The notes under the pieces were generated by a model, which saw only the letters and a program-made list of their open reading frames with translations, searched no databases and was not told where the DNA came from. Positions 5,651 to 49,621 of a stretch of DNA of 64,000 nucleotides are shown in pieces. The stretch is from Emcibacter sp. SYSU 3D8 (lineage in GTDB: Bacteria > Pseudomonadota > Alphaproteobacteria > SMXS01), in contig NZ_JBBYXK010000005.1 in the NCBI RefSeq assembly GCF_039655875.1, positions 124,001-188,000 on the forward strand. The letters are read 5' to 3'. Each line of letters starts with the position of its first letter. Positions within the stretch are counted from its first letter, which is position 1. A program made the position numbers and the translations under genes.

Positions 5651-8203
5651 ATGAAGAACGATCAGGACACAAGGCGCCTGGTTGCCGTCCTCGGTCCCAC
5701 TAACACTGGCAAGACTCATTTCGCGATCGAACGGATGCTGGGCCACAGCTCGGGCATGATCGGCCTGCCGTTGCGGCTGCTGGCGCGCGAGGTCTATGAC
5801 AAGATCGCGGCCATGCGCGGCACGCATTGTGTGGCGCTGTTGACCGGCGAAGAAAAGATCGTCCCGCGTCATCCGTCCTACTGGGTCTGCACCGTCGAGA
5901 GCATGCCGCTGGACAAGGACGTGGCGTTTCTGGCCATCGACGAGGTCCAGCTCTGCGCCGATGAAGAACGCGGCCACACCTTCACCGACCGGCTGCTCTA
6001 TGCGCGCGGCCGCGAGGAAACCATGTTCATGGGCGCCGACAGCATGGCGAAGATCATCCGCCGGCTGCTGCCCGAGTGCGAAATCATCAACCGCAGCCGA
6101 TTTTCGCACCTGTCCTATGCCGGCGCAAAAAAACTGACCCGTCTGCCGCGGCGCAGCGCCATCGTCGCGTTCACCGCCCGGGACGTCTACGAGATCGCCG
6201 AACTGATCCGGCGCCGGAAGGGCGGCGCCGCCATTGTCATGGGCGCCCTGTCGCCGCGCACCCGTAATGCCCAGGTCGAGATGTACCAGAACGGCGAGGT
6301 TGACTACATCGTCGCCACCGACGCCATCGGCATGGGGCTCAACATGTCGATCAACCACGTGGCGTTCGCCTCGCTGACCAAGTTCGACGGCATGCGCCAC
6401 CGCGCCCTGAACAGCCAGGAAGTCGCCCAGATCGCCGGGCGTGCCGGGCGGCATATGAACGACGGCACCTTCGGCGTGCTGAGCGATGGCATGGACGAGC
6501 CCGACATGGCCCCTGAAGTGATCGAGGCGGTCGAGCAGCATCGGTTCGTGCCGGTCGAGAAGCTGCAATGGCGCAACGCCGCGTTGGACTACGCGTCCCT
6601 GCCCCGCCTGATCTCGAGCCTGGAGCGGACACCCGATCTTGGCGGCCTGCTGAAGGCCCGCGAGGCCGAGGACCTGACGGTGCTGAAGGCGCTGGCGAAT
6701 GACAGCGAGATCCGCGACCTGGCCACCCATCGCGCCGCCATCTCGCGGTTGTGGGAAGTCTGCCAGGTGCCGGACTTTCGCAAGACCATGGCCGACGAGC
6801 ATTCCCAGCTGGTCAGGAAGCTGTACGTCCACCTCATGGAGGAAGGCGGCAAACTGCCAGAGGACTGGATCGCCGCACAGGTCAAGCGGCTGGACCGCAC
6901 CGATGGCGATATCGACACGCTGGCGACGCGTATCGCCCATACCCGCACCTGGACCTATATCGCCAACCGGCCTGACTGGATGACCGACCCGGCTCACTGG
7001 CGCGGCGAAACCCGAAAGATCGAGGACAAGCTTTCCGACGCCCTGCATGAACAGCTCACGCTGCGCTTCGTGGACCGGCGCTCGGCGGTGCTGATGAAGC
7101 GTTTGCAGTCGGACCAGCAGATCTTCGCCGCGATCGACGCCCAGAGCGACGTGCTGGTCGAGGGGCATTATGTGGGCCGCCTGAACGGCCTGATATTCGA
7201 TGTGGACCAGACGGCGAACGGTGCGGAAGGCAACGTGCTGCTGAATGCTGCGGGACGTGCCTTGCGCCGGGAGGTGGCGAGCCGGGTTCGCAGCATCCGC
7301 GAGGCGGCTGACCGGGACTTCGTTCTGGAAACGGACACCGCGCAGGTCCTGTTCGGCGGCGCGCCCGTCGCCAGGCTGACCAAGGGCGCCGATCCGTTGA
7401 GCCCCAAGGTCGAGATTCTGGCCAGCGACTTTGTCGAGCAGGCCGAGCGCCTGATGCTCGCCGGCCGGCTGACCGCATTCGCCGAGGCTCAGCTTCGCAG
7501 GGCGCTGGGGCCCTTGTTCCGCCTGAAGGATGCGCTTGCCGCCTCGGACCGGGATTCCGACGCCAAGCTGGCCGGCCTGGCACGCGGTATCGCGTTTCGT
7601 CTGATTGAAGCGCTGGGCGCCATGCCCCGCGAGACGGCCGCCGAGGATCTGCGCAAGCTGGCGCAACAGGACCGCTGGCAGCTTCGCTCGCTGGGCGTGA
7701 AGTTCGGCGAGGCCAGCATCTTCATTCCGGCAATGCTGAAACCCGGCGTCACGCGGCACCGGTTGATGTGCTGGCGCCTGTTCCACGACATGCACGGCCT
7801 GCCGGCTGTGCCCGCTCCGGGCATGACATCGGTCATCGCCGCGCCGGCGCCGGACGGGTTTTACGAGGCGACCGGGTACCGCGTGATCGGCGTGCGCGCC
7901 ATTCGGCTCGACATGCTCGAGAAGGTCGCCGAGACGGCACGGGCACGGCATGAATCCGGCGCCTTGAACGCCGACCGCGAGATCACCTCGTTTGTCGGCT
8001 GCCGCGACCAGGAATTCGCCGCCATACTGGCTTATCTGGGGTATCAGCCAAAGACGCACGCCGACGGCGACACGACGTTTGTTCGCCAGCGGAAGGACCA
8101 CAGGAAATCATCGGCGAAGGCGCAGCGCCAGCAACGGCAGCGCGCCGAACATTCGCCATTCGCGGGACTGCAGACTTTGAAAACCGCCCTCGGCAGAGGT
8201 TAG
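5651..8203 (+). CDS. SUV3-like superfamily 2 RNA helicase
   Basis: This 850-residue protein resembles the SUV3/alphaproteobacterial helicase group, probably an ATP-dependent RNA helicase acting in RNA turnover. Visible motifs are Walker A GPTNTGKT (residues 15-22), Walker B-type DEVQ (97-100), VATDAIGMGLNMSI (about 221-234) and motif VI QIAGRAGRH (260-268). The remaining ~580 residues hold the SUV3 C-terminal region and a basic tail (QRKDHRKSSAKAQRQQRQ). ATG 5651 follows a GGAG site; upstream in-frame starts have none. It heads the tightly spaced run helicase - S4 protein - TerB-like - fdxA - carD, a conserved alphaproteobacterial order, which suggests coupling of RNA decay and stress functions. 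Confidence 0.9.
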   Translation: MKNDQDTRRLVAVLGPTNTGKTHFAIERMLGHSSGMIGLPLRLLAREVYDKIAAMRGTHCVALLTGEEKIVPRHPSYWVCTVESMPLDKDVAFLAIDEVQLCADEERGHTFTDRLLYARGREETMFMGADSMAKIIRRLLPECEIINRSRFSHLSYAGAKKLTRLPRRSAIVAFTARDVYEIAELIRRRKGGAAIVMGALSPRTRNAQVEMYQNGEVDYIVATDAIGMGLNMSINHVAFASLTKFDGMRHRALNSQEVAQIAGRAGRHMNDGTFGVLSDGMDEPDMAPEVIEAVEQHRFVPVEKLQWRNAALDYASLPRLISSLERTPDLGGLLKAREAEDLTVLKALANDSEIRDLATHRAAISRLWEVCQVPDFRKTMADEHSQLVRKLYVHLMEEGGKLPEDWIAAQVKRLDRTDGDIDTLATRIAHTRTWTYIANRPDWMTDPAHWRGETRKIEDKLSDALHEQLTLRFVDRRSAVLMKRLQSDQQIFAAIDAQSDVLVEGHYVGRLNGLIFDVDQTANGAEGNVLLNAAGRALRREVASRVRSIREAADRDFVLETDTAQVLFGGAPVARLTKGADPLSPKVEILASDFVEQAERLMLAGRLTAFAEAQLRRALGPLFRLKDALAASDRDSDAKLAGLARGIAFRLIEALGAMPRETAAEDLRKLAQQDRWQLRSLGVKFGEASIFIPAMLKPGVTRHRLMCWRLFHDMHGLPAVPAPGMTSVIAAPAPDGFYEATGYRVIGVRAIRLDMLEKVAETARARHESGALNADREITSFVGCRDQEFAAILAYLGYQPKTHADGDTTFVRQRKDHRKSSAKAQRQQRQRAEHSPFAGLQTLKTALGRG

Positions 8204-8215
8204 AACGGAGCCCCC

Positions 8216-8524
8216 ATGCAAGATACCGCCCTGCGCATCGACAAATGGCTTTGGTACGCCAGATTCTACAAGAGCCGCTCGTTGGCGGCCAAACATGTGC
8301 AGGCCGGTGAAATCCGGGTCAACAGTCAAAGAATATCCAAGTCGAGTGTCGTGCTGAAGGTCGGCGATGTCCTGACCTTCGCGCTTGGCGACACGGTCCG
8401 CGTGGTCGAAGTCGCCGCGCTGGGCGACCGGCGCGGCCCGGCGCCCGAAGCCAGGCTGCTCTATCACGACCTTGCCGGACAGATCGCGGCCAGCCGCAAC
8501 CGGCCTGGCATCGCCGCCGAATAG
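8216..8524 (+). CDS. S4-domain RNA-binding protein, Hsp15-like
   Basis: The 102-residue protein is essentially one S4 RNA-binding domain. RIDKWLWYARFYKSRSLAAKHVQAGEIRVN is the standard S4 helix-turn-strand core, with KVGDVLTF following. Hsp15 (HslR) binds stalled 50S subunits carrying peptidyl-tRNA and helps recycle them. It starts 12 nt after the helicase stop, with GGAG placed 5 nt before the ATG, so it is translated from the same message. The short C-terminus lacks the long basic tail of E. coli HslR, so the exact function could differ. Confidence 0.88.
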   Translation: MQDTALRIDKWLWYARFYKSRSLAAKHVQAGEIRVNSQRISKSSVVLKVGDVLTFALGDTVRVVEVAALGDRRGPAPEARLLYHDLAGQIAASRNRPGIAAE

Positions 8525-8568
8525 CGGCCAGGCTTGCGGGCGTTCTCCCGGCATGGTAACGCCGGGAC

Positions 8569-9030
8569 ATGTTGGAAGCACTGAAAGCATTGCTGGGCGC
8601 CGGCGCCCCGCCCGTCGAGCGCGAGGGCGAAGGCGCGGATATTCATATTGCGGCGGCGGTCCTGATGGTCGACGCGGCAAGCATCGATGGCGAATTCGGC
8701 GACAACGAACGCGGGATCGTTGCGGGTATTCTCAAGCGCCATTTCGGCCTCACGGACGACGCGCTGGCGAACCTGATGTCGCTCGCTGTCGGCAGGCGCG
8801 ACACCGCGTCGGACCTCAACCGCTACACGCTCACAATCAAAGACGAATTTTCCGAAGCGCAGCGCGTGGAACTCGTTGAACTGCTTTGGGAAGTGGTGTA
8901 TGCGGACGGCCAACTTCACGCCTACGAAGCAAACCTGTTGCGCCGCATCGCGGGGTTGCTCTACGTTTCCGACCGTGAACGAGGGGATGCGCGCAAGCGG
9001 GTACTTAACCGCCTGGGCGTTACAGAATAA
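8569..9030 (+). CDS. TerB-family (tellurite-resistance-type) protein
   Basis: The 153-residue all-helical cytoplasmic protein matches the TerB/DjlA N-terminal domain. It has two metal-type acidic helices, [20 protein letters not shown] and [20 protein letters not shown], the paired D-G-x-F/L...E signatures of the family. The biochemical role is unknown; despite the name most members have no proven link to tellurite. It lies 44 nt after the S4 gene and 19 nt before fdxA, so the three are probably co-transcribed. Confidence 0.82.
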
Positions 9031-9049
9031 AAGGCTCAAGGAGACCGCG

Positions 9050-9382
9050 ATGGCTTACGTCGTGACCGAGGCTTGCATCAAGTGCAAGTACACAGACTGC
9101 GTGGAAGTATGCCCGGTGGACTGCTTCTACGAAGGCGAGAACATGCTCGTCATCAATCCCGACGAGTGCATCGATTGCGGCGTTTGCGAGCCGGAGTGCC
9201 CGGCGGAAGCAATCGTGCCCGATACCGAGGACGGCCTCGATCAGTGGATCGAACTCAATGCCAAGTTCTCGAAGGAGTGGCCGAACCTGACCGAGAAGAA
9301 GGAGGCGCTCGACGGCGCCGACGATTTCAAGGGCGAGACGGGCAAGTTCGACAAGTATTTCACGCCCAATCCGGGCAGCTGA
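9050..9382 (+). CDS. fdxA: Seven-iron ferredoxin FdxA
   Basis: This is a cytoplasmic electron carrier with one [3Fe-4S] and one [4Fe-4S] cluster. The 110 residues include Cys9, 17 and 50 (three-iron cluster) and Cys21, 40, 43 and 46 (four-iron cluster), with extra Cys12 and Cys25, the standard FdxA pattern. The ~50-residue acidic C-terminal extension ([20 protein letters not shown]) is also typical. AAGGAG sits 7 nt before ATG 9050; a longer frame from 8876 overlaps the TerB gene and is not real. A strong terminator follows at 9437. The partner reductase is not in this window. Confidence 0.96.
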
Positions 9383-9436
9383 GACTGCCGCCCGGAGTGC
9401 TTCGGGCGCAGCACCGCTGACCGCTATGTTTTCTCG

Positions 9437-9473
9437 GCACCCCCGATTGCGTGAAATCGGGGGTGCATTTTTT
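9437..9473 (+). terminator. Rho-independent terminator after fdxA
   Basis: A perfect 12-bp stem, GCACCCCCGATT with AATCGGGGGTGC around a 6-nt loop, is followed by ATTTTTT. It closes the helicase-to-fdxA operon, so carD has its own promoter downstream. Confidence 0.93.
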
Positions 9474-9716
9474 ACGATTTTGTGATAATTGTCCTCTCCG
9501 CGTCGGGACACTATCGACACAAGTCGAAGCACCCTTGTCGCGGCGTTTGTCTCCCGTTTCGGTGAGAACCGGTCGTCCTACGAGACGATAGTACAGACAT
9601 CATCCGGTCAATGCGGTCGATGCCGCAGGGGGCGGGTTACATGACTGTCAACTGCTGGCAAAAGGCCAGCGCGGCCACCCGACTGGGACCCTGGAGAGAG
9701 GTTGGCGAGAGAATCC
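9474..9716. other. Intergenic region, presumed carD promoter
   Basis: This gap between the fdxA terminator and carD has no convincing small gene. It must hold the carD promoter, but I see no clear -35/-10 pair. A short frame from 9611 runs into carD out of frame and is discounted. Confidence 0.4.
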
Positions 9717-10241
9717 ATGAACATCATGACCAGCAAGAAGCCCGATCTGTCGAAGAAAAAGTTCCGCAAGGGCGAGCACATCGTCTATCCGGCGCATGGC
9801 GTCGGCCGCATCACCTCCATCGACAAGGAGACGATCGCAGGCACGGAGCTGGAACTTTATGTTATTGAATTTGATAAGGAAAAGATGACCCTCCGGGTTC
9901 CGGTCGCGAAGGTGGACCAGTTGCAGATGCGGAGTCTCGCATCGCCCGACATCATGAAGACGGCGTTGACGACGCTGCGCGGGCGGGCGCGGGTCAAGCG
10001 CACCATGTGGAGCCGCCGCGCCCAGGAATACGAAGCCAAGATCAATTCGGGCGACCCCATCTCGATCGCCGAAGTGGTGCGCGATCTGCACCGCGCGGAA
10101 GATCAGCCGGAGCAGTCCTACAGCGAGCGCCAGATCTACGAATCGGCCCTGGGACGTCTCGCCCGCGAAGTTGCGGCAGTGGAAAAGATCGACGAGCGAT
10201 CGGCCATCGAGAAACTGGAAAAGACTCTCAAGGCGGCGTAA
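9717..10241 (+). CDS. carD: CarD-family transcription regulator
   Basis: CarD proteins bind the RNA polymerase beta subunit and stabilise open promoter complexes, notably at rRNA and stress genes. The 174-residue protein has the RNA-polymerase-interaction Tudor-like domain (FRKGEHIVYPAHGVGRITSID, then a TLRVPVAKVDQL strand, residues ~20-75). A helical C-terminal domain follows (EYEAKINSGDPISIAEVVRDLHR) with the usual alphaproteobacterial helices to the end. ATG 9717 was chosen because upstream residues come only from a TTG; ATG 9726 is possible. It is isolated between two terminators, immediately upstream of rpoH, a conserved pairing. Confidence 0.95.
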   Translation: MNIMTSKKPDLSKKKFRKGEHIVYPAHGVGRITSIDKETIAGTELELYVIEFDKEKMTLRVPVAKVDQLQMRSLASPDIMKTALTTLRGRARVKRTMWSRRAQEYEAKINSGDPISIAEVVRDLHRAEDQPEQSYSERQIYESALGRLAREVAAVEKIDERSAIEKLEKTLKAA

Positions 10242-10267
10242 CGCAGGCACGCACAACGCGTTTGCAG

Positions 10268-10294
10268 AAAGGCCCGCCTCCGGCGGGCCTTTTT
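10268..10294 (+). terminator. Rho-independent terminator after carD
   Basis: The stem AGGCCCGCC / GGCGGGCCT with a TCC loop (extendable by flanking AA/TT pairs) is followed by TTTT. It lies 27 nt after the carD stop. Confidence 0.93.
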
Positions 10295-11342: not shown

Positions 11343-12179
11343 TCAAGGGGAGGGTTCGCGCCCTCCCCTTTTCTTTGGCGGCATGGGTTCGTGCCCCGGC
11401 AATTCGAGCTGTTCCGGATGGCTCAGTTCGATCATGGGGCCGTTGTAATTCTTGATCCAGCCCCGCACACGAACCGTTCGGCCCTTCAATGCCGCCGCAT
11501 CCAGGCCTTGCCGCGCAAGCATGGTCCGCACCCGCGCCGGCACAAGCACCGTGAAATCGGTTTTCCAGTCCGGGCCGAAGTTCAGATAAACCCGGTTCTT
11601 CACGGCTGCGGCATCCAGCACCGTGCCCTCGACGATCTGGAAGGTATTCACCACGCGATGAGCGCGCTCTGGCGTGACGATCGAATAATAGGGATGTCCC
11701 CAGATGCCGCGCCTTGCGGCACGGGCATTGCGCTCAAGCGCCAGCATCTCGGCGGCAAGCGCGCGGTTGTCGGAAAACGTGTAAACCCTGGCCCAGCCCG
11801 ACCGCAGCATCTCGCCTTGCACCCACAGGCCATCGTCGCGCTCGAGATGGGCGAGGGTCCTGCCCCAGCGATCGATGGGTTTGGCGGTTGGGCGCACGGT
11901 CAGCGTATGGTCCAGCACGATCCGCTCGAGTGCACGCCTCGATTCCCTTGCCAGTGGCCATTCCTTGAAGTGAGGACGATCCAGGGGAAGTTTGGGCGCC
12001 TGGATGCCGACCAGCCGGACGACAACCTTGTCGGCCAGAACGAGCGTGTCACCGTCGGTCACTTCGGCGACCTTTGCCGTCCCGGATGACCGCGGCGCAT
12101 GGCCCGGCAGCGCGGCAAAGGCCCACGCTGACAAGGGCAGCAACGCCAGAACGGCAATGACATATGACCGGAATTTCAT
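11343..12179 (-). CDS. Exported thermonuclease (SNase-like) domain protein
   Basis: The 278-residue protein begins with a signal peptide (basic MKFRS, hydrophobic core, AFA/ALP region). An OB-fold nuclease domain follows, with TDGDT at 41-45 (calcium-binding aspartates), RLVGIQAP at 55-62 and the downstream RESRRALERIVL and GWARVY...ALERNARAARRGIW segments. A C-terminal part of about 110 residues (VVNTFQIVEGTVLDAAAVKNRVYLNFG...) is a second OB-like module seen in longer members. It probably degrades extracytoplasmic DNA or RNA. It is the second gene after a tiny membrane-peptide ORF, and its last residues lie in the rpoH terminator. Confidence 0.87.
   Translation of the reverse strand: MKFRSYVIAVLALLPLSAWAFAALPGHAPRSSGTAKVAEVTDGDTLVLADKVVVRLVGIQAPKLPLDRPHFKEWPLARESRRALERIVLDHTLTVRPTAKPIDRWGRTLAHLERDDGLWVQGEMLRSGWARVYTFSDNRALAAEMLALERNARAARRGIWGHPYYSIVTPERAHRVVNTFQIVEGTVLDAAAVKNRVYLNFGPDWKTDFTVLVPARVRTMLARQGLDAAALKGRTVRVRGWIKNYNGPMIELSHPEQLELPGHEPMPPKKRGGREPSP
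11345..11376. terminator. Bidirectional terminator shared by rpoH and the nuclease gene
   Basis: The stem AAGGGGAGGG / CCCTCCCCTT with TTCGCG loop is followed by TTCTTT on the plus strand. The convergent nuclease stop codon (11343-11345) touches its left edge, so the hairpin also encodes the nuclease C-terminus. Confidence 0.88.
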
Positions 12180-42143: not shown

Positions 42144-42671
42144 TCAGGGACGATGCGTCATCGCGCGGTACAGGGGATGTGCCGGTGAAAGGCCTTCGAT
42201 CAATTCCAGGCCCTTCAGGCCGCCGTCCGGGCCGCCGGAGCTGGGCATCTGCTGGGCGAATTCGAGCATGGTGCGGCGCTCGGAAATCCGCCAGATCCCA
42301 TCACGCTTCTCCAGCCTGTCAAGATAACGGCTACCAAAGAAGCTCTGGTTGAAACCACCCTCGCCGTCGGACGAACGACCGCCGGCCAGACTGTTGCTTT
42401 CCGCCTCGGCCGTGTCGCCGTTCAGTTCTATGAGGATGTTGAAGACGTAGTGGAAGCGGTGAAGGCTCTGCGCCTCGATGGGCATCACCATGGTGCACCA
42501 GTCATGGGCGTTTCCGACGAAGAAGCCATAATCCACATGGGCGTCGGGGTGAAAGCACGCCTTCAACGCCGCCTCGTCGAGCCAGTCCAGCCCGCGGGCG
42601 TACCGGGCACCCAATACGTCAGCGATTTCCTGTTTGTCCCATAGCTCCTGAAGCTGCGCGTCGGTGGGCAT
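42144..42671 (-). CDS. NTF2/SnoaL-like protein
   Basis: The 175-residue protein is another SnoaL_4-type NTF2-fold member. It has an N-terminal helix LWDKQEIADVLGARYARGLDWLDEAALKACFHPDAHVDYG, then HRFHYVFNILIELNGDTAEAES and FGSRYLDRLEKRDGIW. A histidine and arginine-rich pocket is present but no activity can be assigned. It is the fourth such gene in the window and is divergent from the first TonB receptor. Confidence 0.85.
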   Translation of the reverse strand: MPTDAQLQELWDKQEIADVLGARYARGLDWLDEAALKACFHPDAHVDYGFFVGNAHDWCTMVMPIEAQSLHRFHYVFNILIELNGDTAEAESNSLAGGRSSDGEGGFNQSFFGSRYLDRLEKRDGIWRISERRTMLEFAQQMPSSGGPDGGLKGLELIEGLSPAHPLYRAMTHRP

Positions 42672-42806: not shown

Positions 42807-42883
42807 AAATCACGCTTGAATGTTTGTGGAGACATATGCTCTGATTTTGGTAACATGAACATGAGCGTGCCGTCTTGGGGAGG
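42807..42883 (+). promoter_or_regulatory. Conserved upstream elements of TonB receptor 1
   Basis: AAATCACGCTTGAATGT (42807-42823) is identical to a site upstream of receptor 2. TATGCT (42835-42840) follows TTGAAT (42816-42821) by 13 nt, short for sigma-70 but within the spacing reported for some alphaproteobacterial promoters. TTGGGGAGG (42875-42883) is also shared and sits ~145 nt before the receptor start, directly before a short ORF. Confidence 0.5.
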
Positions 42884-42889
42884 GATCGG

Positions 42890-43021
42890 ATGCGCGCTGC
42901 CAGGTCTCCGAGGGGAGGAGCGCCGGCACCGCATGGCAAGCGCGCCGCATCCACTCTCACCAGCAGACGCATGACGCAAGGAATCCGGCGCAGTATCGAC
43001 CGCCGACAACAGGGGAGATGA
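42890..43021 (+). CDS. Possible leader peptide upstream of TonB receptor 1
   Basis: A 43-codon arginine-rich frame (MRAARSPRGGAPAPHGKR...) begins 6 nt after a very strong GGGGAGG site and stops 5 nt before the receptor GTG, overlapping the receptor ribosome site. It could couple translation of the receptor. The peptide is not conserved with the short frame upstream of receptor 2, so the DNA element may matter more than the peptide. It is weakly supported as a protein. Confidence 0.25.
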   Translation: MRAARSPRGGAPAPHGKRAASTLTSRRMTQGIRRSIDRRQQGR

Positions 43022-43026
43022 TCAAC

Positions 43027-45648
43027 GTGAAAACAGCGCAACATATGGGAGGGGGCAGCTTCTTGGGCCGCTTGCTTGCCGGCGTGGCGGGAGCCGCGCT
43101 GATAGTGGGGATAATCGGCCCGGCCGCCGCGCAAGGCGATGCGCCCCCGCCCGCACCGCCACCGACGCCCCAGAGGACCTCGTCGATCGAGACCGTGATG
43201 GTGAGCGCCCGAAAGACCGAGGAACGCGCCATCGACACGCCGGTTGCCCTGGCGGTACTGACCGAAGAGCAGATGCAGCGCTACAATACCACCGACGTGA
43301 CCCAGCTGAGTTCGCAGTTGCCCGGCGTCGAGGTGAACAAGGCCTCGGGCGGCGGCGCCGGCGGCAACTTCGTCATTCGCGGCATCGGCCGCCAGGCGTC
43401 CGACTACGGCGCCGACCAGCCGGTGGCCTTCGTGCTGGACGGCTTCTCGTTTACCCGCGGCCACATGTCGAGCGTCGGCTTCTTCGACGTGGCGAACGTC
43501 CAGGTGCTGAAGGGTCCGCAGACCCTGTTCTTCGGCAAGAACAGCCCGGCGGGCGTGATCGCGGTCACCAGCGTCTCGCCCGGCGACACCTATGAAGGCT
43601 TCGCCAAGGTCAGCTATGAGTTCCGCGCCGAAGATCCGAGCATCGAGTTCGGTGTCTCGATCCCGGTCAACGAAAAGCTGAAGATCCGCGTCGCTGGCCG
43701 CGGTCAGTTCATGCAGGGCGGGTATTACAAGAACGACGGCGCCAAGATCCTCGACGTGCCCCGGAATCTGGGTCCGTTCGAGACCGATGCGCTCTACCCG
43801 CACAACCCGAACCAGTTCAAGGAGCAGCCCAAGACCAAGCAATATGTGGGCCGCATCACGGCCGTGTTCGAGCCGACCGACAATTTCGATGCCACCTTGA
43901 AGATATTCGCGGCCGATCAAACCGATAACGACGCAGGCGCCGCGGCTGTCATCGCCTGCGCCGATGGTGTCGGCGGCAGCCCCTATCTGAACACCGGCTT
44001 CTTCGGCCTCGTCAAGGATCCCACCCAAGTCTGCGACGGCAAGATTCACTGGCGGCGGAGCGCTGTCCAACCGCCGGTCGCATGGTTCGAGAGCAACCCC
44101 ACGCTCGATAACAACGACACCCATTACTTCAACCACTTCCGTAACTTCCTTACCACCCTGGAGATGAACTGGAAGATCACCGACGACCTGACGTTGACCT
44201 CGGTGTCCGGCTACTGGGATTACAAGCAGCGCGAGCTGACCCAGTACGACTACACCTATGGCGTCGTGGCCTCGAAGCAGGGCGAAGGCGGCCACAGCTT
44301 CACCACCGAGCTGCGCCTGCGGTCCGACTATGACGGTCCGGTCAACTTCATGATCGGCGGCTTCTACGAGGACATGTTCCGCGACCTGGATGCCCCGGTG
44401 CAGATCTTCCCGCTCGGCCCGGCCCCGGACAGCAATTTCTATCCGGATTTCTACAACGGCAGCTTCCTCACCTATCACCAGCATTGGGACAACAACATCA
44501 CCAGCTGGTCGATATTCGGCGAAATGCGCTGGGACATCACCGACACCCTCGAGCTGTCGGGCGGTGTGCGCTATACCGAGGACAACCGCAACGCCCACGG
44601 CGAGCAGCTGTTCAACCGGCTGGACGATTTCCTGTCGGCCGCGCCCGAGACGGCCAATCCGTTCGCTCACTCAGGCACGGCTTACGACCTGACCCGCAGC
44701 TTCCACAACACCTCGCCGCAGGCGACGTTGAGCTGGAAGCCGGTTGACGACCTGATGCTCTATGCCTCGTACAAGACCGGTTACCAGGCGGCGGGCATCT
44801 CCAACCCGGGCACCATCGGCAACTTCTATTCGAAGAACCCCGACGGATCGATCCGGATGGACACGGAGGGCAACCCGATCCGCGCCACCAGCGAAGAGGT
44901 GAACCCGATCCTGACCTTCGACGGCTCGACCGTTAAAGGCTTCGAGATCGGCGCCAAGGGGTCGTTCTTCGACGGCATGATGACCGCCGACATCGCCCTC
45001 TACACCATGAAGTACAGCTCGCTGCAAGTGGCCGTGTTCAACCCGGTGACCACCAACTTCACCGTCCAGAACGCCGCCGGCGCCCGGAACTCGGGTATCG
45101 AAGGCAACATGTACCTGCAGGCCACCGACGACCTGCAGTTGCGCCTTTCGGCCCAGTACAACCATCTGAAGTACACCAGCTTCCCGGCAGCCCAGTGCTA
45201 TGCCGGCCAGAACACGCCATCGGCATCGAACTATGTGCCCGCATTGGCGGCGTTGTGCATGCCCACCGGTACCGGCGGCTTCGCCCAGGACCTGTCGGGC
45301 GAGCGTTATGGTGGCGGTCCCTTCCAGATTGCCGCCGGCTTCACCTACGATGTGTCGATTGGCAATGACTGGGGAATGTCGCTGTCGGGTGACGTGAACT
45401 TCCGCAACAAGGGTTTCGAGCCCCTGCGTCAGCCCGGTACGGCCGTTCCGGCACGCACGCTGATCAACGCATCCGTCCGCATCTACCAGATGGACGGACC
45501 GTGGGAGTTCTCACTGATCTGCTCGAACTGCGGCAACGACCATTATGTCTACAGCATCCAGGACAAGCCGCTGGCCAAGACCGGCGACCTGACCGGTCAG
45601 TTGGGCATGCCCCGGCTGATCACCATCCAGTCAACCTACCGCTGGTAA
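43027..45648 (+). CDS. TonB-dependent outer-membrane receptor 1
   Basis: The 873-residue outer-membrane transporter takes up a large nutrient using TonB energy. It has a signal peptide (cleavage near AAAQGD), a TonB-box-like ETVMVSA, a plug domain (TPVALAVLTEEQMQRYNTTDV, GGGAGGNFVIRGIG, LKGPQTLFFGKNSPAGVI) and a ~700-residue beta barrel. It ends in the aromatic TIQSTYRW (C-terminal Trp for Bam recognition). GTG 43027 was chosen because AGGGGAG lies 9 nt upstream; the ATG at 43018 abuts the ribosome site. No FecI/FecR-type sigma system adjoins. The ligand is unknown; the plug is of the siderophore or carbohydrate type used by sphingomonad-like bacteria. Confidence 0.93.
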   Translation: MKTAQHMGGGSFLGRLLAGVAGAALIVGIIGPAAAQGDAPPPAPPPTPQRTSSIETVMVSARKTEERAIDTPVALAVLTEEQMQRYNTTDVTQLSSQLPGVEVNKASGGGAGGNFVIRGIGRQASDYGADQPVAFVLDGFSFTRGHMSSVGFFDVANVQVLKGPQTLFFGKNSPAGVIAVTSVSPGDTYEGFAKVSYEFRAEDPSIEFGVSIPVNEKLKIRVAGRGQFMQGGYYKNDGAKILDVPRNLGPFETDALYPHNPNQFKEQPKTKQYVGRITAVFEPTDNFDATLKIFAADQTDNDAGAAAVIACADGVGGSPYLNTGFFGLVKDPTQVCDGKIHWRRSAVQPPVAWFESNPTLDNNDTHYFNHFRNFLTTLEMNWKITDDLTLTSVSGYWDYKQRELTQYDYTYGVVASKQGEGGHSFTTELRLRSDYDGPVNFMIGGFYEDMFRDLDAPVQIFPLGPAPDSNFYPDFYNGSFLTYHQHWDNNITSWSIFGEMRWDITDTLELSGGVRYTEDNRNAHGEQLFNRLDDFLSAAPETANPFAHSGTAYDLTRSFHNTSPQATLSWKPVDDLMLYASYKTGYQAAGISNPGTIGNFYSKNPDGSIRMDTEGNPIRATSEEVNPILTFDGSTVKGFEIGAKGSFFDGMMTADIALYTMKYSSLQVAVFNPVTTNFTVQNAAGARNSGIEGNMYLQATDDLQLRLSAQYNHLKYTSFPAAQCYAGQNTPSASNYVPALAALCMPTGTGGFAQDLSGERYGGGPFQIAAGFTYDVSIGNDWGMSLSGDVNFRNKGFEPLRQPGTAVPARTLINASVRIYQMDGPWEFSLICSNCGNDHYVYSIQDKPLAKTGDLTGQLGMPRLITIQSTYRW

Positions 45649-45672
45649 GCTAGCTTCCAGCATCATCCGCCT

Positions 45673-45710
45673 CGGGGCGGGCCGGTTTACCGGTCCGCCC
45701 CGTTGCTTTT
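45673..45710 (+). terminator. Terminator after TonB receptor 1
   Basis: CGGGGCGGGCCGG-TTTA-CCGGTCCGCCCCG forms a 13-bp stem with one mismatch, followed by TTGCTTTT. It separates the two receptor genes, so receptor 2 has its own promoter. Confidence 0.85.
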
Positions 45711-45750
45711 GCGGGTAGCGCCCCGGGACCGCTGCCGGGCCGGCCATCAA

Positions 45751-45818
45751 AAATCACGCTTGAATGTATTTGATTAGTATGATGTTCTTCCAGCGAACGA
45801 AGCACTGAGTTGGGGAGG
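45751..45818 (+). promoter_or_regulatory. Conserved upstream elements of TonB receptor 2
   Basis: AAATCACGCTTGAATGT (45751-45767) repeats exactly the site before receptor 1, and TATGAT (45778-45783) follows TTGAAT by 12 nt. TTGGGGAGG (45810-45818) is again present, now ~175 nt before the receptor start. Flanking sequence is largely unrelated, so the shared parts look selected or converted. Confidence 0.5.
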
Positions 45819-45822
45819 ACAG

Positions 45823-45930
45823 GTGCGGATCGACACCATCGATGGTTGCTCGCACCGAAATACCGCGCACGGCATCCCCCCGCATAACCGCCACACCAAG
45901 AAACAGGCACTGAATCCAGCGACTGCCTGA
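45823..45930 (+). CDS. Possible leader peptide upstream of TonB receptor 2
   Basis: A 35-codon frame starting at GTG (MRIDTIDGCSHRNTAHG...) lies 4 nt after GGGGAGGACAG and ends 62 nt before the receptor start. It parallels the short frame before receptor 1 in position but not in peptide sequence. Poor support as a protein; noted for the paired arrangement. Confidence 0.2.
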   Translation: MRIDTIDGCSHRNTAHGIPPHNRHTKKQALNPATA

Positions 45931-45992
45931 CCAAAGTGTCCGTTGGAAATCCAGCGGACAAGGGGCAACACCACAAGGGGAGAAAACAACCA

Positions 45993-48629
45993 GTGAGTAA
46001 GCTTTTTAATACCTGGACCGGCCGTCATGGCCGCGCCTTGACGGGCGTTGCGGGCATAATTGCTCTTGCAGCGATCCATCCTGCAGCCGCCCAGGACGGC
46101 GCGGCGCCGTTGCCGCCGACGGGTCAGACCCAGCAGCAGCCTGTGTCGCAGCCGCGCAGCCAGTCGATCGACACGGTGATGGTGAGCGCCCGAAAGACCG
46201 AGGAGCGCGCCATTGATACGCCGGTCGCCCTGTCGGTGCTGACCGAAGAGCAGATGCAGCGCTATAACACCACCGACGTGACCCAGCTCAGTTCGCAGCT
46301 GCCCGGCGTCGAGGTGAACAAGGCCTCGGGCGGCGGCGCCGGCGGCAACTTCATCATCCGCGGCGTGGGCCGTCTGGCGACCGATTACGGCGCCGACCAG
46401 CCGGTGGCCTTCGTGCTGGACGGCTTCTCGTTTACCCGCGGCCACATGTCGAGCGTCGGTTTCTTCGACGTGGCGAACGTCCAGGTGCTGAAGGGTCCGC
46501 AGACCCTGTTTTTCGGCAAGAACAGCCCGGCGGGCGTGATCGCGGTCACCAGCGTTTCGCCCGGCGACACCTATGAAGGCTTCGCCAAGGTCAGCTACGA
46601 GTTCCGCTCCGAAGACCCGAGCGTTGAATTCGGCGTGTCGATCCCGGTGAATGACAAGCTCGCGATCCGTGTCGCAGGCCGCGGTCAGTTCATGCAGGGC
46701 GGCTATTACAAGAATACGGCGTCAGACCTGGTTGGCCTGCCGCGCGACCTGAGCCCGTTCGAGACGACCGCGCTCTATCCCACCAATCCCAACCAGTTCA
46801 CCGAAACCCCGAAAACCAAGCAGTTCGTGGGCCGTATCACCGCGGTGTTCACGCCGAACGACAATTTCGACGCGACGTTGAAAGTGTTCGCAGCGGACCA
46901 GCGAGACAATGACGCCGGTGGCGCCGCTGTCATCGCCTGTGCCGACGGCGTGGGCGGCAGCCCCTACCAGAACACGGGCTTCTTCGGCCTGGTCCAGGAT
47001 CCGACGCAGACCTGTGACGGCAAGATTCATTGGCGCCGTCACAGCACCCAGCCGCCCGAGGCGTGGTTCGACAGCAATCCTACCCTGGATAACAACGACA
47101 CCCACTACTTCAACCATTTCCGCAATTTCCTGACCACGCTGGAGATGAACTGGAGGATCACCGACGAGCTGACGTTGACGTCCGTGTCGGGCTACTGGGA
47201 CTACAAGCAGCGCGAGCTGACCCAGTACGACTACACCTATGGCGTCGTGGCCTCGAAGCAGGGCGAAGGCGGCCACAGCTTCACCACCGAGCTGCGCCTG
47301 CGGTCCGACTATGACGGTCCGGTCAACTTCATGATCGGCGGCTTCTACGAGGACATGTTCCGCGACCTGGATGCCCCGGTGCAGATCTTCCCGCTCGGCC
47401 CGGCCCCGGACAGCAATTTCTATCCGGATTTCTACAACGGCAGCTTCCTCACCTATCACCAGCATTGGGACAACAACATCACCAGCTGGTCGATATTCGG
47501 CGAAATGCGCTGGGACATCACCGACACCCTCGAGCTGTCGGGCGGTGTGCGCTATACCGAGGACAACCGCAACGCCCACGGCGAGCAGCTGTTCAACCGG
47601 CTGGACGATTTCCTGTCGGCCGCGCCCGAGACGGCCAATCCGTTCGCTCACTCAGGCACGGCTTACGACCTGACCCGCAGCTTCCACAACACCTCGCCGC
47701 AGGCGACGTTGAGCTGGAAGCCGGTTGACGACCTGATGCTCTATGCCTCGTACAAGACCGGTTACCAGGCGGCGGGCATCTCCAACCCCGGCACCATCGG
47801 CAACTTCTATTCGCAGAACCCCGACGGCTCGATCCGTTATGACGGTGACGGCAAACCGATCCGGGCGACCAGCGCCGAGGTCAACCCGATCCTGACCTTT
47901 GACGGCTCGACCGTTAAAGGCTTCGAGATCGGCGCCAAGGGGTCGTTCTTTGACGGCATGATGACCGCCGACGTCGCGCTCTACACCATGAAGTACAGCT
48001 CGCTGCAGGTGGCCGTGTTCAACCCGGTGACCACCAACTTCACCGTCCAGAACGCCGCCGGCGCCCGGAATTCGGGCATCGAAGGCAACATGTACATGCA
48101 GGCTACCGATAACCTGCTGCTGCGTCTTTCGGCCCAGTACAACCGCCTGAAATACACCAGCTTCCCGGCAGCCCAGTGCTATGCCGGCCAGAACACGCCT
48201 TCGGCATCGAACTATGTGCCCGCATTGGCGGCATTGTGCATGCCCACCGGTACCGGCGGCTTCGCCCAGGACCTGTCGGGTGAGCGTTATGGCGGCGGTC
48301 CGTTCCAGGTCAATGCCGGCTTCACCTACGACGTCGACCTGTCCAACGACTGGGGCCTGTCCCTTTCGGCGGATGTGAACTTCCGCAACAAGGGCTTCGA
48401 GACCATCCGCCAGCCCGGAACAGGGGTGCCCGCGCGTACGCTGATCAATGCGTCGGTCCGTGTCTATCAGACGACCGGTCCGTGGGAGTTCTCGCTGGTC
48501 TGCGCCAATTGCGGCAATGACCATTATGTCTACAGCATCCAGGACAAGCCGCTGGGCGCGACCGGTGACCTGACCGGCCAGCTTGGCATGCCGCGCCTGA
48601 TCACCATCCAGTCGACCTATCGCTGGTAA
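45993..48629 (+). CDS. TonB-dependent outer-membrane receptor 2 (paralogue)
   Basis: The 878-residue protein has a signal peptide (cleavage near AAAQDG), TonB-box-like DTVMVSA and the same plug and barrel layout as receptor 1. Nucleotides 47202-47788 equal 44221-44807 of receptor 1 with no mismatch, while the plug, N-terminus and C-terminal third differ at many silent and some replacement sites. Differences concentrate in loops such as ASDLVGLPRDLSPFET versus GAKILDVPRNLGPFET. GTG 45993 was chosen because AAGGGGAG lies upstream. Probably a related but not identical ligand. Confidence 0.93.
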   Translation: MSKLFNTWTGRHGRALTGVAGIIALAAIHPAAAQDGAAPLPPTGQTQQQPVSQPRSQSIDTVMVSARKTEERAIDTPVALSVLTEEQMQRYNTTDVTQLSSQLPGVEVNKASGGGAGGNFIIRGVGRLATDYGADQPVAFVLDGFSFTRGHMSSVGFFDVANVQVLKGPQTLFFGKNSPAGVIAVTSVSPGDTYEGFAKVSYEFRSEDPSVEFGVSIPVNDKLAIRVAGRGQFMQGGYYKNTASDLVGLPRDLSPFETTALYPTNPNQFTETPKTKQFVGRITAVFTPNDNFDATLKVFAADQRDNDAGGAAVIACADGVGGSPYQNTGFFGLVQDPTQTCDGKIHWRRHSTQPPEAWFDSNPTLDNNDTHYFNHFRNFLTTLEMNWRITDELTLTSVSGYWDYKQRELTQYDYTYGVVASKQGEGGHSFTTELRLRSDYDGPVNFMIGGFYEDMFRDLDAPVQIFPLGPAPDSNFYPDFYNGSFLTYHQHWDNNITSWSIFGEMRWDITDTLELSGGVRYTEDNRNAHGEQLFNRLDDFLSAAPETANPFAHSGTAYDLTRSFHNTSPQATLSWKPVDDLMLYASYKTGYQAAGISNPGTIGNFYSQNPDGSIRYDGDGKPIRATSAEVNPILTFDGSTVKGFEIGAKGSFFDGMMTADVALYTMKYSSLQVAVFNPVTTNFTVQNAAGARNSGIEGNMYMQATDNLLLRLSAQYNRLKYTSFPAAQCYAGQNTPSASNYVPALAALCMPTGTGGFAQDLSGERYGGGPFQVNAGFTYDVDLSNDWGLSLSADVNFRNKGFETIRQPGTGVPARTLINASVRVYQTTGPWEFSLVCANCGNDHYVYSIQDKPLGATGDLTGQLGMPRLITIQSTYRW

Positions 48630-48781: not shown

Positions 48782-49621
48782 ATGCTGTCCTACCGCCACG
48801 GATTTCACGCCGGCAACCACGCTGACGTCCTCAAGCACGGAATATGCGCGTTCATTGCCCGCTACCTGCTGCGCAAGGACACACCGGTCCTGTTCCTCGA
48901 CACCCATGCGGGCGCCGGACGCTACGATCTGCAGGCGCCAGAGGCTGAAAAGACCGGGGAATTCAGGGCTGGTATCGGCCGTCTGATGCCGGAAGCCGCC
49001 GACGCGCCGGAATTGCTGACCGATTATCTGGCCCAGGTGCGATCGCTCAATGCGGACGACAGCCTGCGCATTTACCCCGGCTCGCCATCCTTGATCATGG
49101 CGCTGATGCGGCCTCAGGACCGTGCGCTGTTCTATGAACTACATCCGTCGGACGAAGCCAGACTCTCCCAGTTTGTCTCCGGCCGAAGGCGGGTCCGCGT
49201 GGAAAAGGCGGACGGCCTTCGCAACCTGATCGCCCACATGCCGCCACCCGAGCGGCGGGCGCTGTGCCTGATCGACCCCAGCTACGAGATCAAGACCGAC
49301 TACGCGCTGGTTGCCACGGCCGTCTCCCAGGCATGGAAAAAATTCCCCGGCGGCACATATGTCTGGTGGTATCCCGTCATCGACAGGACACGTGTGCGTG
49401 CCATGGAGGTCGCCATGCGCGCAGCTGGGCTTCGCAAGACTTACAGGGTGGAATTCTGCATGGAACCAGATACGGCCGAACGCGGCATGACAGGGTCCGG
49501 CCTGTTTATCGTGAACCCTCCCTACACGCTGCCCGCCGCGGTGGATGCGGCCCTGCCCTGGCTGGTGGAAAAGCTTGGCGCACAGGGTCCGACACAAGCC
49601 GGCTGGCTGTTTCCCGAATAG
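48782..49621 (+). CDS. rlmJ: 23S rRNA (adenine-2030-N6)-methyltransferase RlmJ
   Basis: It methylates A2030 of 23S rRNA using SAM. The 279-residue protein opens with the diagnostic YRHGFHAGNHADVLKH, has LDTHAGAGRYDL (SAM motif I), YPGSPSLI and the catalytic motif IV at residues 165-169, here DPSYE instead of the usual DPPYE. Asp165 (E. coli Asp164) is kept. GSGLFIVNPPYTLP near the C-terminus is also conserved. It is followed by a GNAT gene 7 nt later, with which it is probably co-transcribed. Confidence 0.93.
   Translation: MLSYRHGFHAGNHADVLKHGICAFIARYLLRKDTPVLFLDTHAGAGRYDLQAPEAEKTGEFRAGIGRLMPEAADAPELLTDYLAQVRSLNADDSLRIYPGSPSLIMALMRPQDRALFYELHPSDEARLSQFVSGRRRVRVEKADGLRNLIAHMPPPERRALCLIDPSYEIKTDYALVATAVSQAWKKFPGGTYVWWYPVIDRTRVRAMEVAMRAAGLRKTYRVEFCMEPDTAERGMTGSGLFIVNPPYTLPAAVDAALPWLVEKLGAQGPTQAGWLFPE

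Follow-up and report, generated by a model that had tools for sequence, protein, structure and literature searches.

The locus described here raises the question of how two neighbouring genes for TonB-dependent receptors, R1 and R2, came to share 587 bp at every position, while other parts of the same genes differ at many silent sites. The explanation that we regard as very probable is a recent gene conversion between the members of an old tandem pair, the latest of several such events, during which each gene kept its own leader, i.e. its upstream region and signal peptide. A sequence-only reading of the window, the 64,000-nucleotide stretch of DNA that was analysed, had already proposed a recent conversion or recombination of the tandem copies, and this proposal is supported by a permutation test, by segment trees and by approximately unbiased (AU) tests.

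Layout of the receptor locus and its conservation

The two receptor genes are arranged head to tail on the plus strand between two conserved neighbours, and the locus comprises the following features:

42144-42671, minus strand: SnoaL-like protein (PF13577), conserved neighbour on the left side
42807-42823, plus strand: motif AAATCACGCTTGAATGT upstream of R1, one of two genome copies
43027-45648, plus strand: R1, TonB-dependent receptor with PF07715 plug and PF00593 barrel (Pfam)
45751-45767, plus strand: motif AAATCACGCTTGAATGT upstream of R2, the other genome copy
45993-48629, plus strand: R2, TonB-dependent receptor with PF07715 and PF00593 (Pfam)
48782-49621, plus strand: RlmJ-type 23S rRNA methyltransferase (PF04378), conserved right neighbour

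The GTG codon at position 43027 is favoured as the start of R1 by an alignment of relatives, the longest open frame beginning at 43018, and an alignment with the receptors G006_B and G003_2 of related genomes makes the GTG codon at 45993 the likely start of R2, for which the longest open frame begins at 45936. Both Pfam domains were detected above cut-off in each deduced protein, which identifies R1 and R2 as TonB-dependent receptors. The AlphaFold2 model (pLDDT 84, pTM 0.84) contains 22 strands as counted from the predicted secondary structure, and its best Foldseek matches were FyuA (4epa), FoxA (6i97) and PqqU (9c4o), which share the plug and the 22-strand barrel with R1 and R2 but just 12-16% sequence identity. 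With respect to the substrate, no NCBIfam model of a subfamily (siderophore, haem, B12 etc.) reached its cut-off for R1 or R2, and the searches by NCBIfam, PDB sequence and fold returned general receptor matches only.

The 17-bp motif AAATCACGCTTGAATGT occurs exactly twice in the whole genome, both times at this locus, and the motif or a near form of it (0-3 mismatches) was found 5' of all nine receptors checked at the locus across the genus, including those of regions L031-L035. It is a probable regulatory site. An interpretation as a sigma-70 -35/-10 pair was discarded, as no convincing spacing was apparent by eye.

The genome carrying R1 and R2 (G000) was compared within seven genomes of the genus; searches of the family and the order gave ten genomes in all and none further. 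The gene order MltF-like, SnoaL-like, receptor(s), RlmJ, transglutaminase-like is conserved across the genus, with the exceptions of G002, in which no SnoaL match was found at the locus, and of G006, whose contig begins inside the first receptor. A receptor pair is present in G003 and G001 and a single receptor in G002 and G004, and G006 contains a complete second copy (G006_B) along with the C-terminal part of the first, cut by the contig end. Since the pair is syntenic in G003, G001 and G006, it does not represent a new duplication.

Silent divergence and segment phylogenies along R1 and R2

The R1 bases 44221-44807 equal the R2 bases 47202-47788 at an offset of 2981, and the nearest mismatches are located at 44220 (T/C) and 44808 (G/C). 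As these mismatches lie directly at both block edges, the limits given by the sequence-only reading are exact, as is the claimed identity including silent sites. No exact repeat within the window is longer than this block, and a third copy that might have served as donor was not found in the genome. The remaining gene bodies align at the same offset with many mismatches, and R1 can accordingly be divided as follows:

43213-43602, plus strand: TonB box and plug region of R1, with 6/73 fourfold sites differing from R2, probable older tract
43603-44220, plus strand: divergent part of R1 with strands 1-7 and loops L2 and L3, 42/82 fourfold sites differing
44221-44807, plus strand: recent conversion tract in R1, 0/587 mismatches and 0/92 fourfold differences, also supported by the AU test and structure mapping
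44808-45357, plus strand: intermediate part of R1, 15/94 fourfold sites differing from R2, possible older tract
45358-45645, plus strand: divergent C-terminal part of R1, 21/42 fourfold sites differing from R2
47202-47788, plus strand: matching tract in R2, 0/587 mismatches

Outside the block, 92 of 312 fourfold sites in the codon alignment differ between R1 and R2 (Fisher p = 1.7e-12 against the block), which bears out the many silent differences that had been noticed in the flanks; divergence is strongly non-uniform rather than uniformly low along the genes. The longest run of identical silent codons comprises 187 of 748, compared with a maximum of 68 in 20,000 shuffles. Moreover, a Sawyer-type test of R1, R2 and four sequences from relatives, performed with our own script and not with the GENECONV program, detected a run of 66 silent polymorphic codons for R1 and R2 (44227-44803), whereas the largest run in 10,000 permutations was 29. 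No comparable run was observed in the other 14 pairs; the G003 pair showed a 12-codon run in the plug with p = 0.012 before correction for 15 pairs.

The same sites vary in the relatives. Within the block, R2 differs from its position-2 counterpart G006_B at 23/83 fourfold sites (p = 5.5e-9 against the value for R1 and R2), and the block differs from the single gene of G002 at 18/79. This combination of a sharp-edged tract of reduced silent divergence with variability of the same sites in relatives is characteristic of interlocus gene conversion. Within the block, the fourfold divergence of the two receptors has a 95% upper bound of 3.2%, roughly a ninth of the value for G000 and G006, and the event is therefore recent in relation to that split, a rough estimate uncorrected for saturation.

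Trees of the individual segments revealed a mosaic history. The R1+R2 clade obtained bootstrap values of 100 in the block, 86 in the plug and 90 in the intermediate part, and alternatives to it were rejected in the block (AU p about 1e-6 or less). On the other hand, the R1+R2 clade itself was rejected in 43603-44219 (AU p 0.037) and in 45358-45645 (AU p 0.029), where R2 groups with G006_B with a bootstrap value of 99. Accordingly, the paralogues group in the tract, and orthology outside it is clear at the C-terminal end and weaker at 43603-44219. Silent divergence in the plug and the intermediate part was distinguished from that in the two divergent parts with p = 1.1e-12. In the AU tests both segments lean to R1+R2 short of significance, the R2+G006_B alternative having p values of 0.10 in the plug, where an older tract is not significant on its own, and 0.12 in 44808-45357. 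These values are suggestive of older tracts, and we assign the two segments to older conversion with moderate confidence.

Divergence between the two genes is found at the N-terminus, which includes the signal peptide, and at 43603-44220 and 45358-45552. The plug, which had been supposed to diverge, belongs in fact to the most similar parts, with 91-98% identity overall and 98% identity at 43408-43602 (2/38 fourfold differences). On the model, the tract corresponds to residues 368-562, predicted to begin in the second half of strand 7, to end where loop L7 starts and to include L4-L6, the loop numbering being our own reading of the strands in the AlphaFold2 prediction. Outside the block, amino acid differences affect 35/249 residues of predicted extracellular loops and 27/239 of predicted strands and turns (p = 0.42). 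The idea that divergence is focused on the loops, which might have pointed to ligand shuffling, was hence rejected, and the suggested shuffling of ligand specificity finds no support in the distribution of amino acid differences between R1 and R2.

The direction of the conversion leans towards R1 as the donor and R2 as the recipient. Among the sites that distinguish G006_B from G002, the block agrees with the two in a ratio of 34:30, which resembles the divergent flanks of R1 (70:66) and is unlike those of R2 (106:36; p = 0.003). The raw silent distance to G006_B, which amounts to 0.28 in the block, 0.29 in the R2 flanks and 0.39 in the R1 flanks, leans against this direction. The signal is derived from one comparison, and uneven regional divergence could produce it.

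Leaders and bodies in the genus

A tree of six neighbouring proteins placed G004 with G006 and G002, then G000, and left G003 and G001 outside. The leaders, i.e. the upstream and signal regions, fell into one class with R2, G006_B and G003_2 (bootstrap 95) and another with R1 and the receptors of G002 and G004; those of G003_1, G001_1 and G001_2 were less firmly placed, but by eye they look like the class that matches their position. The leaders thus sort largely by position, but the receptor bodies do not. R1, G002 and G003_1 carry bodies of the position-2 kind, and the bodies of G004 and G001_1 are 54-58% identical to the others at aligned residues outside the block. Behind position-1 leaders, X-type bodies are present in G001 and G004 and Y-type bodies in R1, G002 and G003. 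On the neighbour tree, bodies behind position-1 leaders must therefore have been replaced at least twice, and the new bodies may equally well have been supplied by the adjacent copy, by a different paralogue or through transfer.

Stretches bearing other receptors of G000 were also compared, in a set chosen for its receptors and not as a genome-wide repeat count. A second tandem pair of TonB receptor genes (C2:329675-335523) has 2,555 exact bases in common (L038:4664-7218 and 7723-10277, corresponding to G000:C2:329663-335276). This block extends from the TonB box (LESVTVSG) to 12 bp past the stop codon, whereas the signal peptides and flanks differ; it may have arisen by conversion or by a new duplication that placed the body behind a different leader. 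Single counterparts of the C2 receptor are found in G004 and G006. The matches to counterparts in G004 (L059), G006 (L060) and G002 (L062) each contain one stop codon, which is probably located upstream of the start, and larger stretches of the three genomes show full-length open frames of 899-914 amino acids. In G002, a pair at a related cluster (G002:C21, L075:6647-6969 and 9579-9901) shares an exact block of 323 bp that begins near the TonB box. These exact blocks in other receptor sets of G000 and G002 indicate that sharing is not confined to R1 and R2. G000 also contains three tandem TonB receptors at C2:996000-1013000, two of which have an exact block of 140 bp in common (L043:8387-8526 and 11389-11528).

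The events at the locus may be pictured as follows. The tandem pair is old, and 587 bp of one of its members would recently have been overwritten by homologous recombination without crossover, presumably dependent on RecA, with strands 1-7 and the C-terminal strands retaining separate histories. This event would be the latest of several, as the plug and 44808-45357 seem to bear signs of older homogenisation; the exact identity, the lack of constraint, the mosaic phylogeny and the leaders that follow position are shown by the data, and the molecular mechanism and the number of older events are what we infer. Over longer time, bodies would have been exchanged at the locus, and each gene would have retained its own upstream region and signal peptide. 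The tandem receptors of the genus, then, appear to exchange or homogenise their bodies repeatedly while keeping their own leaders. Because X- and Y-type bodies occur behind position-1 leaders and the 2,555-bp block starts from the TonB box, we tentatively consider a body-exchange system, in which the upstream region and signal peptide stay fixed and the body, beginning at the TonB box, is copied from one position to another; this possibility is rather less likely than its absence. If it existed, one receptor could be put under the control of another gene. With regard to phase or antigenic variation, a Pfam scan of the neighbouring genes revealed no recombinase, and the genome contained no third copy of the block.

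Competing explanations and significance

Several other explanations of the exact block were weighed against gene conversion. Its identity might be an assembly artefact, in which the sequence of one copy was written into both places or small differences were collapsed, and indeed the draft genome consists of 17 contigs and the repeat is longer than short reads. We consider this improbable. The flanks, which are 15-25% different, were assembled apart right up to both edges, and a 587-bp stretch that differed to a similar degree would therefore have been kept apart as well; only a near-identical block could collapse, and near-identity would itself still require a recent conversion. The same assembly places the 2,555-bp exact tandem repeat inside a contig of over 1 Mb, which suggests that long reads were used. 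A small number of differences within the block could still be masked by the assembly. About equally unlikely is that both copies took the block from another cell, by two transfers or by one transfer that then spread. The block is equally near to G006_B and G002, and one transfer followed by conversion would fit this observation, but at silent sites the block is no more distant from each relative than the flanks are, and a single transfer still requires conversion between the copies.

Two further explanations have next to nothing in their favour. Long antisense open frames overlap the block, and constraint at the nucleotide level, by RNA structure, an overlapping antisense frame or codon bias, might thus be imagined to hold it identical; such frames are common at a G+C content of 63%. 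The silent divergence between species within the block, seen against both G006_B and G002, refutes constraint. Similarly, the tandem arrangement would suit a recent duplication of the whole gene, after which everything except the block diverged rapidly, but the silent divergence in the two divergent parts equals or exceeds the level seen from genome to genome within the genus, and other genomes contain the tandem pair with its leaders, as the syntenic pairs of G003 and G001 demonstrate.

Recent gene conversion between R1 and R2 belongs to a process that is already known, of which the pair is a new and clean example, real and recent. Gene conversion and concerted evolution of bacterial outer-membrane protein paralogues, including a short-term class, are mentioned in PMC6053082 with reference to Santoyo and Romero (2005). 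As in that class, paralogues of the same genome are closer to each other than to orthologues over a limited tract; unlike that class, R1 and R2 are TonB-dependent receptors of an environmental alphaproteobacterium-like genus, show a mosaic of tract ages and imply no antigenic role. Intragenomic recombination between babA and babB of Helicobacter pylori (PMC3444412) likewise exchanges coding sequence between loci of outer-membrane paralogues in one genome, but the bab genes encode host adhesins, whereas R1 and R2 are tandem transport receptors with no sign of phase or antigenic variation. No paper on conversion between tandem TonB receptors was found, the subscription literature lying mostly outside the search.

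The locus accordingly provides a clean and datable gene conversion in a large receptor family for which conversion is seldom described in the literature searched. It cautions that trees of tandem receptor genes blend several histories and that the prediction of ligands by orthology can fail at such loci. The pattern of leaders and bodies beyond R1 and R2 merits a survey: if the exchange of bodies behind fixed leaders were general, the regulation of nutrient uptake could be rewired without new promoters.
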